This document shows, piece after piece, positions 8,234 through 46,040 of a DNA stretch of 64,000 nt. The notes under the pieces are model-generated. The model was not told the DNA's origin and ran no database searches. It saw only the letters and a list, made by a program, of their open reading frames with translations. Position 1 is the stretch's first letter. Each line of letters begins with the position of its first letter. The position numbers and the translations under genes are program-made. The stretch comes from Methanocaldococcus fervens AG86 (lineage in GTDB: Archaea > AGJL01 > Methanococci > Methanococcales > Methanocaldococcaceae), in contig NC_013156.1 of NCBI RefSeq assembly GCF_000023985.1, positions 732,363 through 796,362 of the forward strand. The letters are read 5' to 3'.

Positions 8234-8494
8234 TTAATAGAATCTCAACACAGTTCTTTTCTCCCCATCACTATGAGCCAACTCCAACAAATCATCTAAT
8301 ATCTCTTCAATCTCAACCTCTATAATGCCGTATCTTTCATGGACTAATCTTACGAGACCATCGTTATAATGCACTAATCTACCTTCAACGTGAACCCTTC
8401 CAAAGTATATTTCAACGTACTCATCCACATCTATATTGTTGTCGAGATACTCAAAAACATCTTTTGGGTTTTTTACATCAATAATTTCTTCCAT
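8234..8494 (-). CDS. Small conserved acidic protein, possibly DUF2097
   Basis: An 86-residue acidic protein beginning [17 protein letters not shown]. It contains a short beta-rich core (EIYFGRVHVEGRLVHYN, LVRLVHERYGIIEVEI) and ends KRTVLRFY. It resembles a small methanogen-specific family (I believe DUF2097) of unknown function, but this is from memory. The start is the ATG at 8494, after GAGTGAT; the in-frame TTG at 8506 is too close to that site. It lies 13 bp downstream of nadM and is probably cotranscribed with it. Its stop codon abuts an inverted-repeat element. Confidence 0.7.
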   Translation of the reverse strand: MEEIIDVKNPKDVFEYLDNNIDVDEYVEIYFGRVHVEGRLVHYNDGLVRLVHERYGIIEVEIEEILDDLLELAHSDGEKRTVLRFY

Positions 8495-42787: not shown

Positions 42788-43912
42788 TTAGAAGAGATTT
42801 CTTATAATTTCTAACGCTTTTTCTATATCCTCATACTTCGTGGCGTAGCTGAATCTTATATAATTAGCCCCATTTTCTCCAAATGCAATTCCAGGAACGC
42901 ATAAAACTTTATTTTCAATTAATTTTTTAGCAACCTCTACACCATCTCCATACTCAGACACATCTGGGAATATGTAAAATGCCCCATCAGGTTTATTAAC
43001 TTTAAAAACATCTTTTAATCCATTGTATATCAAATCCCTCCTCCTTCTAAACTCATTAACCATATCCTCAACACATTTTTGACTTCCTCTCAAAGCTGCT
43101 AAAGCACCATGTTGGGCAAAGGTTGTAGCACAGGCAAAGCTGTATTGGTGGATTTTTATCATGTTGTTGATTAAATCCAACTCATTACTTAATTCATCTG
43201 AAACAGCCAAATAACCAATTCTCCAACCAGTCATTGCATAGGTTTTAGAAAATCCATTTATTAGTATGCATCTATCAGTAAATTGCATTGGTGAGTAGTG
43301 TTTTTTATCATAGATAATTTTATCATAAACTTCATCCGAAATTATAATTAAATTGTAGTCCTCAGCTATTTCTGCCAATCCTTTTATTGTTTCTTTGTCA
43401 TAAACCTTTCCAGTAGGATTTGCTGGGGAGTTAAAGATTATCAACTTTGTTTTTTTAGTTATCGATTCTTTAACCTCTTCTAAATCAACATCAAAATTCT
43501 CATCCAAATTTATATTTTTAATCTTCCCTTCTGCAAACTCTGTTAATGAAAAATAAGATACAAAAGATGGGTTTGGAATTAAAACTTCATTCCCTCTATC
43601 AACTAAAGCCATTATTGATAACATTAACGCCTCTGAAGCTCCGCAGGTAATTATTATATTATCTTTATCAACATCTAAGTTATAATCTTTCTTCAATTTG
43701 TTGCTTATCTCTTCTCTAAGCTCTGGAATACCATTGTTTGGAGAGTAGTGAGTTTTTCCCTCATCTAATGCCTTTTTTGCCTTTTCAACTATATGCTTTG
43801 GTGTATCAAAATCTGGCTCCCCTATTCCCAAATTTATGCAATCAGATGTCGCCAAATTAAAAACTTCCCTAATTGCTGACGGCTTTATATTTTTACATCT
43901 ACTGCTTATCAT
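42788..43912 (-). CDS. Class I/II aminotransferase, probable aspartate aminotransferase
   Basis: A 374-residue fold-type I PLP enzyme. Landmarks are GIGEPDFDTPKHIV near residue 30, HYSPNNGIPELRE near residue 55, NSPANPTGKVY near residue 162, and NGFSKTYAMTGWRIGY near residue 222 with the PLP-binding Lys. The family covers aspartate and related aminotransferases; the recalled ortholog MJ0684 is annotated as aspartate aminotransferase, but specificity is not visible in sequence. The start at 43912 follows GAGGGTGTAAGG; the longer frame to 43942 spans that site. Confidence 0.88.
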   Translation of the reverse strand: MISSRCKNIKPSAIREVFNLATSDCINLGIGEPDFDTPKHIVEKAKKALDEGKTHYSPNNGIPELREEISNKLKKDYNLDVDKDNIIITCGASEALMLSIMALVDRGNEVLIPNPSFVSYFSLTEFAEGKIKNINLDENFDVDLEEVKESITKKTKLIIFNSPANPTGKVYDKETIKGLAEIAEDYNLIIISDEVYDKIIYDKKHYSPMQFTDRCILINGFSKTYAMTGWRIGYLAVSDELSNELDLINNMIKIHQYSFACATTFAQHGALAALRGSQKCVEDMVNEFRRRRDLIYNGLKDVFKVNKPDGAFYIFPDVSEYGDGVEVAKKLIENKVLCVPGIAFGENGANYIRFSYATKYEDIEKALEIIRNLF

Positions 43913-44108
43913 CCTTACACCCTCAATTTTTGCAGATAGCAATTTTTATATTGTCTTTATATAGTTATCTTTTTACATGCATAATTTTTAATACCTCCCA
44001 AGCCATTAGAAATTTTAATTGGTAGTATTATATAATAGGAGTTATCAGCTTTATAATAGGATTAGTATCTATTTAACGCAGTATTTAACAATTATTTAAG
44101 GTGAAACT

Positions 44109-45155
44109 ATGGAAAAAGAAGGAAAAATGAGATTAACTGAAATGGTTAAACTCCATGGATGAGCTTGCAAACTGCCCAGCACCGAGTTAGAGTATTTAGT
44201 TAAAGGAATAGTTACTGACAAAGATTTATCAAATAAAGATATTTTAGTTGGGTTGGGTGATGATGCAGCAGTAATTAAAAGAGATGGGTTGGTTATAGCA
44301 AAGACCGTTGATGTTTTCACTCCAATTGTTGATGATCCCTATATACAAGGGAAGATAGCTGCCTGTAACTCAATGAGCGACATCTATGCCATGGGATTGT
44401 TGGATATAGTTGGAGTCTTAGCAATTGTAGGTATTCCAGAAAAATTGCCAATACCCATAGTTAGAGAGATGCTGAAAGGATTTCAGGACTTTTGTAGAGA
44501 AAATGAAACAACAATCGTTGGAGGGCATACAATACTAAATCCATGGCCTTTGATTGGAGGAGCTGTTACAGGAGTTGGAAAAGAGGAAGAGGTCTTAACA
44601 AAGGCTGGAGCTAAGGAAGGAGACATCTTAATATTAACAAAACCACTAGGAACTCAGACAGCGATGGCGTTATCAAGGATTCCAGAGGAATTTAAAGATT
44701 TAATAGATGTTAGTGAGGAAGAGAAAGAGTATATAATAAATAAGGCAATAGAGCTAATGACTACATCAAATAGATATGCGTTAATGGCTTTGAGAAGAGC
44801 GGAAAAAAGAGTTGGGGATAAAATAGCCAATGCATTAACTGATATAACAGGATTTGGTATATTAGGGCATTCAAATGAAATGGCTGATAACAGTAACGTT
44901 TTGATAGAGATAAATTTACTTCCATGCATAAAAAAGACCCCAGAATTGAGTAGGTTGTTTGGACATGCTTTATTGGATGGATATGGAGCTGAAACTGCTG
45001 GAGGTTTATTAATATCGGCAAAAAAAGAATACAAAGATGATTTAATTAATGAGTTGGAGAAATCTAACTGCTATGCCTTTGAAGTTGGAAGGGTAGTTAA
45101 AAAAGGAGAAGGAAAGGCAGTTTTAAGTAAAGATGTTAAAGTTATTGAAATTTAA
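44109..45155 (+). CDS. selD: Selenophosphate synthetase, a selenoprotein with an in-frame TGA codon
   Basis: The 348-residue enzyme makes selenophosphate from selenide and ATP, the selenium donor for Sec-tRNA. The frame begins at ATG 44109 (GGTGAAACT just upstream) and meets TGA at 44160-44162 (codon 18) in the context KLHG-U-ACKLPSTELEY. This is the catalytic Sec/Cys position of SelD, so the TGA is read as selenocysteine. The glycine-rich ATP site follows (GLGDDAAVIKRDG; SMSDIYAMG; GGHTILNPWP). An archaeal SECIS lies in the 3' UTR (45203-45232), and tRNA-Sec is encoded at 39560. Bases 44172-44188, inside this gene, are perfectly complementary to 45155-45171. Automatic callers would start this gene falsely at 44253. 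Recalled ortholog MJ1591. Confidence 0.96.
44172..44188 (+). other. Left arm of a 17-nt long-range complementarity in selD mRNA
   Basis: The coding segment CTGCCCAGCACCGAGTT begins nine bases after the Sec TGA codon. Its exact reverse complement occupies 45155-45171. In a genome this A+T rich, a G/C-rich perfect 17-mer complement within one mRNA is very unlikely by chance. Confidence 0.85.
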
Positions 45156-45171
45156 ACTCGGTGCTGGGCAG
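45155..45171 (+). other. Right arm of the selD long-range complementarity
   Basis: AACTCGGTGCTGGGCAG starts on the last base of the selD stop codon and pairs without mismatch with 44172-44188. The SECIS hairpin begins 31 bases downstream. Confidence 0.85.
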
Positions 45172-45202
45172 ATATAGCAATAAAATGATAATGTTGTTGC
45201 AA

Positions 45203-45232
45203 ATGTGCCGAACCCTTTTAAGGGAGGCACAT
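45203..45232 (+). promoter_or_regulatory. SECIS element in the selD 3' UTR
   Basis: A hairpin with outer stem ATGTGCC/GGCACAT, an asymmetric internal loop of GAA on the 5' side and a single A on the 3' side, an upper stem CCC(TT)/(AA)GGG and a small T-rich apex. The GAA...A internal loop over a G/C-rich 3-bp stem is the archaeal SECIS consensus, which recruits the selenocysteine elongation machinery to decode UGA. It lies 48 bp after the selD stop codon. Confidence 0.93.
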
Positions 45233-45311
45233 CGAATAAACCATTATTTTACCTTAAAGTATAAAAATCAAATGAGGGATTCTTTATAAATACAACTCCT
45301 CTGGTGAAAGT

Positions 45312-46040
45312 ATGAATATAAACTTAGAAGAAATTTTAAAAAAACAGCCATTGTATAGTGGAAAGGCAAAATCTATTTATGAAATTGATGAAGATAAGGT
45401 GTTAATTGAGTTTAGGGATGATATAACAGCTGGAAATGGGGCTAAGCATGATGTTAAGCAGGGAAAGGGTTATTTAAACGCTTTAATATCTTCAAAGTTG
45501 TTTGAAATTTTGGAAAAAAATGGTATAAAAACCCACTACATAAAATATATAGAGCCAAGATACATGGTGGCTAAAAAAGTTGAAATAATTCCAATAGAGG
45601 TTATAGTTAGAAACATAGCCGCTGGAAGTTTGTGTAGAAGGTATCCCTTTGAAGAGGGGAAAGAGCTACCTTTCCCAGTTGTTCAGTTTGATTATAAAAA
45701 TGATGAATATAAAGATCCGATGTTAAATGATGATATTGCAGTGGCATTAGGTTTAGCTACAAGAGAAGAGTTAAATAAGATTAAAGAGATTGCATTAAAG
45801 GTTAACGAAGTATTGAAAAAATTGTTTGACGAAAAAGGTATTATATTAGTTGACTTCAAAATTGAAATTGGAAAAGATAAAGATGGCAATTTATTAGTTG
45901 CTGATGAGATTAGCCCAGACACCATGAGATTGTGGGATAAAGAGACAAGAGATGTTTTAGATAAGGATGTGTTTAGAAAGAATTTAGGAGATGTTATTGC
46001 AAAATATAGAGTTGTTGCTGAAAGGTTAGGATTGTTATAA
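45312..46040 (+). CDS. purC: Phosphoribosylaminoimidazole-succinocarboxamide synthase
   Basis: A 242-residue purine-synthesis enzyme that couples CAIR and aspartate using ATP. It has YSGKAKSIYEID near residue 16 (ATP loop), EFRDDITAGNGAKHD near residue 30, EVIVRNIAAGSLCRR near residue 96 and ADEISPDTMRLWD near residue 198, all diagnostic. The ATG at 45312 follows GGTGAAAGT. purS begins 12 bp downstream, so the two are cotranscribed. purA lies elsewhere in the window at 22371. Recalled ortholog MJ1592. Confidence 0.95.
   Translation: MNINLEEILKKQPLYSGKAKSIYEIDEDKVLIEFRDDITAGNGAKHDVKQGKGYLNALISSKLFEILEKNGIKTHYIKYIEPRYMVAKKVEIIPIEVIVRNIAAGSLCRRYPFEEGKELPFPVVQFDYKNDEYKDPMLNDDIAVALGLATREELNKIKEIALKVNEVLKKLFDEKGIILVDFKIEIGKDKDGNLLVADEISPDTMRLWDKETRDVLDKDVFRKNLGDVIAKYRVVAERLGLL

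Follow-up and report, generated by a model that had tools for sequence, protein, structure and literature searches.

The window, by which we mean the whole stretch of 64,000 nucleotides analysed here, belongs to a genome of Methanocaldococcus fervens AG86 that counts 1,507,251 bases in two contigs, with 1,485,061 in the main one. On its forward strand lies selD, encoding selenophosphate synthetase (44109-45155), whose frame reads through a TGA at 44160-44162, the Sec UGA codon in the motif HG-U-ACKLP. Such an in-frame TGA was present in all selD genes of the order whose 5' end was available. Nine bases separate this UGA from a coding segment at 44172-44188 (CTGCCCAGCACCGAGTT, codons KLPSTEL), and positions 45155-45171 (AACTCGGTGCTGGGCAG), on the same strand, are its exact 17-nt reverse complement, the first base of this 3' arm being the final base of the selD stop codon UAA (45153-45155). 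Further downstream in the 3' UTR, 31 nt after the 3' arm and 48 nt past the stop codon, stands a hairpin at 45203-45232 (ATGTGCC GAA CCCTTTTAAGGG A GGCACAT). The perfect complement, its start nine bases after the UGA and on the last stop base, and the 31-base interval before the SECIS had all been given in a preliminary description of this DNA, and each was confirmed.

By examining sequence and stem of the hairpin for the hallmarks of methanogen SECIS elements, we found an internal loop with GAA opposite A, flanked by G-C clamps (ATGTGCC-GAA-CCC..GGG-A-GGCACAT), a kink-turn-like motif as described in the available passages of PMC11881835. By its motif the hairpin therefore matches a methanogen SECIS, with a predicted role in Sec insertion. 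A search of 43800-45400 against Rfam returned zero matches and so speaks neither for nor against a SECIS. Across the host genome, a loose SECIS pattern was uninformative, with 1763 matches and even more in the control; a strict one recovered the SECIS of selD and vhuU, plus two matches in rRNA-like repeats that we took as chance.

The complementarity of the two arms stands out from the background. Within the window, 17-mer matches with up to three mismatches were confined to the two arm sites, and 0 of 100 shuffles gave two such matches. At the same tolerance the whole genome holds one extra site, carrying three mismatches; a trans-acting use of the selD arm was rejected, the genome having no second good target. 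Among 174 ORFs from the window and neighbouring loci, the longest complement between a CDS and its downstream sequence outside selenoprotein genes was 15 nt, and all complements of at least 18 nt fell in hdrA or fwuB. The coding arm is also written in codons that are uncommon in these selD genes (CTG, 3.8% of Leu; ACC, 10% of Thr), and its synonymous differences amount to 0.142 vs 0.352 for the whole gene, a value equally low in 16 of 325 windows along it. In the same comparison, the fwuB coding arm was free of synonymous change within Methanocaldococcus, the minimum over all windows of that gene, and the hdrA coding arm had no unusual conservation. The selD complementarity is not due to chance.

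The comparison covered a set of 36 genomes, which a phylum-wide search returned unchanged. A selD helix of 17-22 bp is kept in 15 of 15 Methanocaldococcus- or Methanotorris-like genomes that have selD (thirteen Methanocaldococcus-like and two of the Methanotorris-like genus g5), beginning 9-13 nt past the first base of the UGA and with its other arm 5' of the SECIS. Coding arms that differ between lineages each meet their own complement (CTGCCCAGCACCGAGTT, CTTCCCAGCACCGAATT, CTCCCCAGTGCTGAGCTT, CTCCCCAGTACTGAGCTT, CTGCCCAGCACTGAGCTT and CTTCCCAGCACCGATT). Of the 270 cells in an 18-pair core, 264 are Watson-Crick and none is G-U, a percentage biased towards structure because the arms were extracted by complementarity. 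This bias does not touch the double changes, which sit inside long perfect helices: compensatory changes between the arms, which the preliminary description had proposed to look for across genomes, were found at 6 of the 18 pairs. Moreover, the observed pairing was reached in 0 of 20,000 swaps of arms between genomes, the pairing or covariation score in 0 of 500 column shuffles, and shifting the register abolished pairing. The complementarity and its covariation are solid. In most genomes the 3' arm shares bases with the stop codon; in G003, G007 and G013 it lies 7-24 nt or more past it. The spacer between arm and SECIS is about 80-95 nt in G001 (locus L004) and G013 (L009), where the other genomes have about 15-40 nt, which would fit an insertion at this place.

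In ten genomes of the genera g3 and g4 (Methanothermococcus-like), the UTR arm of selD is absent. Their coding segment at UGA+12, the same as elsewhere, instead finds a 10-13 nt partner near the end of the CDS, about 50 nt ahead of the stop codon, and in 9 of the 10 genomes this arm encodes G-V/I-G-K with the codons GGY-RTT-GGG-AAG. Its letters track those of the coding arm (GCC/GGC, ACC/GGT, AAT/ATT), that is, the two covary. The longest match exceeded nearly all shuffles in nine genomes (reached by 0-3 of 200), and in G022 it was just 10 nt and alone not significant (28 of 200). A coding arm kept while the UTR arm is missing, which the preliminary description had held to speak against pairing, seems to be what these ten genomes present; the partner, however, is found in the last selD codons. 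Since the arm was relocated and its partner did not move, the features that are kept are a partner near the UGA and another arm close to the SECIS, rather than a site in the UTR. The selD genes of Methanococcus proper have neither the UTR arm nor the one at the CDS end, and are the only group without it.

The same arrangement recurs in other selenoprotein genes of the M. fervens genome: hdrA has a 24-nt exact match at UGA+38 (29 bp counting G-U) and fwuB a 19-nt match at UGA+26, and the second arms of both lie directly 5' of their SECIS, that of hdrA falling entirely within the UTR. Across the order, exact matches of at least 14 nt were present in 14 of 26 hdrA and 17 of 26 fwuB genes, with arms reaching up to 29 bp and 26 bp, respectively. 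In fwuB, 6 of 14 pairs have double changes. Matches in Methanococcus are shorter (9-12 nt in hdrA and fwuB) and singly near chance length, and those of fwuB share one coding site. For fwuB, the 9-12 nt of Methanococcus-like genomes compare with 17-26 nt in Methanocaldococcus, Methanotorris and g3 MAGs, which we take to be the more thermophilic clades; hdrA is similar. The hdrA arms differ by lineage: several genomes have a weak arm or none, among them G006 and G033 despite a retained SECIS. As for fdhA, it carries a form in which both flanks of the SECIS pair. By contrast, vhuU, vhuD and frhA, whose UGA lies 63-216 nt from the stop codon, had zero complementarity above chance, and for the 3' flank in selD, hdrA and fwuB the longest complement equalled the shuffled mean.

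Some hdrA and fwuB genes have no SECIS of their own, and in these the arm is missing as well. Despite a UGA, no own SECIS was recognisable in hdrA of G013, G002 and G012 (L150, L151 and L149) nor in fwuB of G002, G008 and G012 (L151, L152 and L149). The nearest SECIS downstream of the SECIS-less hdrA genes is that of vhuD, about 500-570 nt past the hdrA stop codon, so that one SECIS may serve two genes of the operon. We also observed GATGA before and CTGA after the hdrA SECIS stem (L118, L142-L146, L153-L155, L175; e.g. in L143 after base 8356). This bracket resembles a box C/D kink-turn and could be a site for L7Ae. In G013, and partly in G002 and G012, hdrA retains the bracket and its UGA but has neither the GAA/A motif nor the tether arm any longer.

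Along the strand, UGA and SECIS are about 990-1570 nt apart in selD, hdrA and fwuB. With the arms paired, the separation falls mostly to 20-55 nt: 21-103 nt in selD (mostly 21-48), 38-71 nt in fwuB and 44-95 nt in hdrA, compared with 67-80 nt in the untethered vhuU, all distances being approximate with the base of the SECIS stem set at 7 nt before the GAA motif. At 85 °C, the minimum-energy folds of the selD, hdrA and fwuB mRNAs hold the arm helix fully or minus one pair, and blocking the coding arm from pairing costs 11-16 kcal/mol by comparison of minimum energies, in a fold model without proteins, ribosomes or salt correction. The proposal of the preliminary description that pairing would bring the SECIS near the UGA is therefore supported by the covariation in 15 genomes, the predicted fold and the recurrence in hdrA and fwuB.

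Pairing between SECIS flanks and an ORF has a published precedent. In passages of Peiter et al. 2025 (PMC11881835), the flanks of the 5'-UTR SECIS of fdhA1 are reported to be complementary to the ORF throughout Methanococcales, to be longer at high growth temperature and to set the SECIS about 40 nt from the UGA, so the earlier statement that no such pairing had been described in archaeal selenoprotein mRNAs does not stand; we also see this form in our set. These passages name no gene besides fdhA1 for ORF-complementary flanks, and those of a 2026 review do not mention complementarity of the hdrA or fwuB type; searches of the open literature brought up nothing further on hdrA and fwuB. The form with a single arm, 5' of a 3' SECIS, in selD, hdrA and fwuB was not found in the searchable literature and is provisionally novel. 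As in fdhA1, sequence adjoining the SECIS of the three genes is complementary to a part of the ORF not far 3' of the UGA, and in fwuB and hdrA the complementarity is longer in more thermophilic clades. They differ in that their SECIS lies in the 3' UTR rather than the 5' UTR, that only the 5' flank pairs rather than both, and that in ten genomes the selD arm is inside the CDS.

The arrangement can also be compared with recoding systems outside archaea. In bacteria, the SECIS hairpin immediately follows the UGA, lies within the reading frame and is bound by SelB; the short working distance to the UGA would be alike, but here it would come from a long-range helix. The Sec redefinition element (SRE) of eukaryotes is likewise formed by RNA of the ORF a little 3' of the Sec codon, but as a local stem-loop, whereas the partner of the selD coding arm is about 1 kb off and attached to the SECIS; we found no local stem-loop a few nucleotides 3' of the selD UGA, the 85 °C fold pairing the coding arm with 45155-45171. 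Plant RNA viruses have long-distance readthrough and frameshift elements in which a distant 3' sequence also pairs beside the recoding site, but they have no SECIS or Sec machinery and their sequences are unrelated.

We propose, with a probability of roughly three in four, that pairing of the two arms gives the selD mRNA a long-range helix that works in cis as a tether and offers the SECIS to the ribosome stopped at the UGA. By pairing with the coding segment, about 9-30 nt past the Sec UGA, the arm just 5' of the SECIS would hold the SECIS some 20-50 nt (up to about 100 nt in two genomes) from a ribosome with its A site on the UGA. This closeness would raise the local concentration of SECIS-bound Sec machinery, and passing ribosomes would open the helix, which would then re-form. 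Along these lines, selD would be one case of an order-wide design common to hdrA, fwuB and fdhA1 with its 5'-UTR SECIS. Positioning of the SECIS is the most economical reading because it accounts for the arm lying close to the SECIS and its partner staying near the UGA, for the helix occurring in genes with a distant UGA and not in those with a near one, and for the longer arms in heat-lovers. We infer from these features that the helix forms in cells and promotes Sec insertion. Several observations count against it. First, UGA-SECIS distances of 520-679 nt are functional without a tether in M. maripaludis (PMC9622424). Second, in the M. maripaludis reporter described in passages of PMC11881835, complementary flanks gave no net gain in activity and threefold less mRNA; the doubled activity per mRNA in the same assay counts for the tether. 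Third, selD of Methanococcus proper has no arm, and in several genomes hdrA has a weak arm or none, its coding arm showing no unusual conservation.

An alternative is that the helix mainly serves as a roadblock downstream of the UGA, pausing the ribosome and favouring recoding over termination, as proposed for the eukaryotic SRE, with the closeness of the SECIS being incidental. In selD, the helix start at 9-13 nt from the first base of the UGA is indeed near the mRNA entry of the stopped ribosome. The earlier picture of a helix just ahead of it is not supported as a common feature, as the helix starts at 26-34 nt in fwuB, 28-62 nt in hdrA and 28 nt in fdhA, and with this range of 9-62 nt a pause site is hardly what the genes have in common. 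Furthermore, a pause needs no partner 1 kb away, the second arm always adjoins the SECIS, and the near-UGA genes vhuU, vhuD and frhA do without such a helix. We thus regard a roadblock as unlikely to be the main role.

A regulatory helix, one that masks the SECIS, the stop region or the surroundings of the UGA or that controls mRNA stability, for instance in response to selenium, also seems improbable to us. It would fit the overlap of the selD arm with the stop codon in most genomes and, in passages of PMC11881835, the threefold loss of reporter mRNA with complementary flanks. However, the arm lies past the stop codon in three genomes and before it in ten, and no alternative fold was seen, though without a systematic search. 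Feedback control of selD at low selenium, put forward in the preliminary description, fits less well since it leaves the same element in hdrA, fwuB and fdhA unexplained.

With 264 Watson-Crick cells and no G-U, the selD arms are more perfect than many RNA helices. This would fit inverted repeats in the DNA that template switching or gene conversion keeps similar to each other and that play no part at the RNA level, and an inverted duplication may well be the origin of the arms. Yet a Watson-Crick bias is expected at 80-90 °C, and the repeats adjoin the SECIS in four genes, are absent from control ORFs and are missing where the SECIS is missing. In addition, the arm is found in the UTR in some genomes and in the CDS in others, with its partner at one fixed site, and the hdrA helix has lasting mismatches in a genome that is presumably M. 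jannaschii. We therefore consider this very unlikely. Finally, an origin in chance or coding constraint, for which one could cite the conserved motifs encoded by both g3/g4 arms, is contradicted by the covariation controls in selD and fwuB, the ORF background and the shuffles, and can practically be discounted.

Beyond selD, we lean towards SECIS tethering being general in Methanococcales: nearly all genes with a distant UGA and a SECIS of their own would have a covarying helix that leaves a few tens of nucleotides between UGA and SECIS, hyperthermophiles would depend on it, and Sec insertion would be a short-range, bacteria-like process despite the SECIS lying in a UTR. As to how an archaeal SECIS signals to a ribosome at a distant UGA, PMC11881835 reports that SBP2 has no known homologue here and that SelB from archaea failed to bind its SECIS. 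That a tether is conserved in selD, hdrA, fwuB and fdhA suggests that RNA geometry is part of the answer. A tether could reconcile the reporters in a mesophile, where distance has little effect, with hyperthermophile genomes that keep helices of 17-29 bp. The arm pairs identify bases to mutate, and arms adjoining a SECIS provide a new cue by which the genomes of hyperthermophilic archaea can be searched for selenoprotein genes and the SECIS that belong to them.
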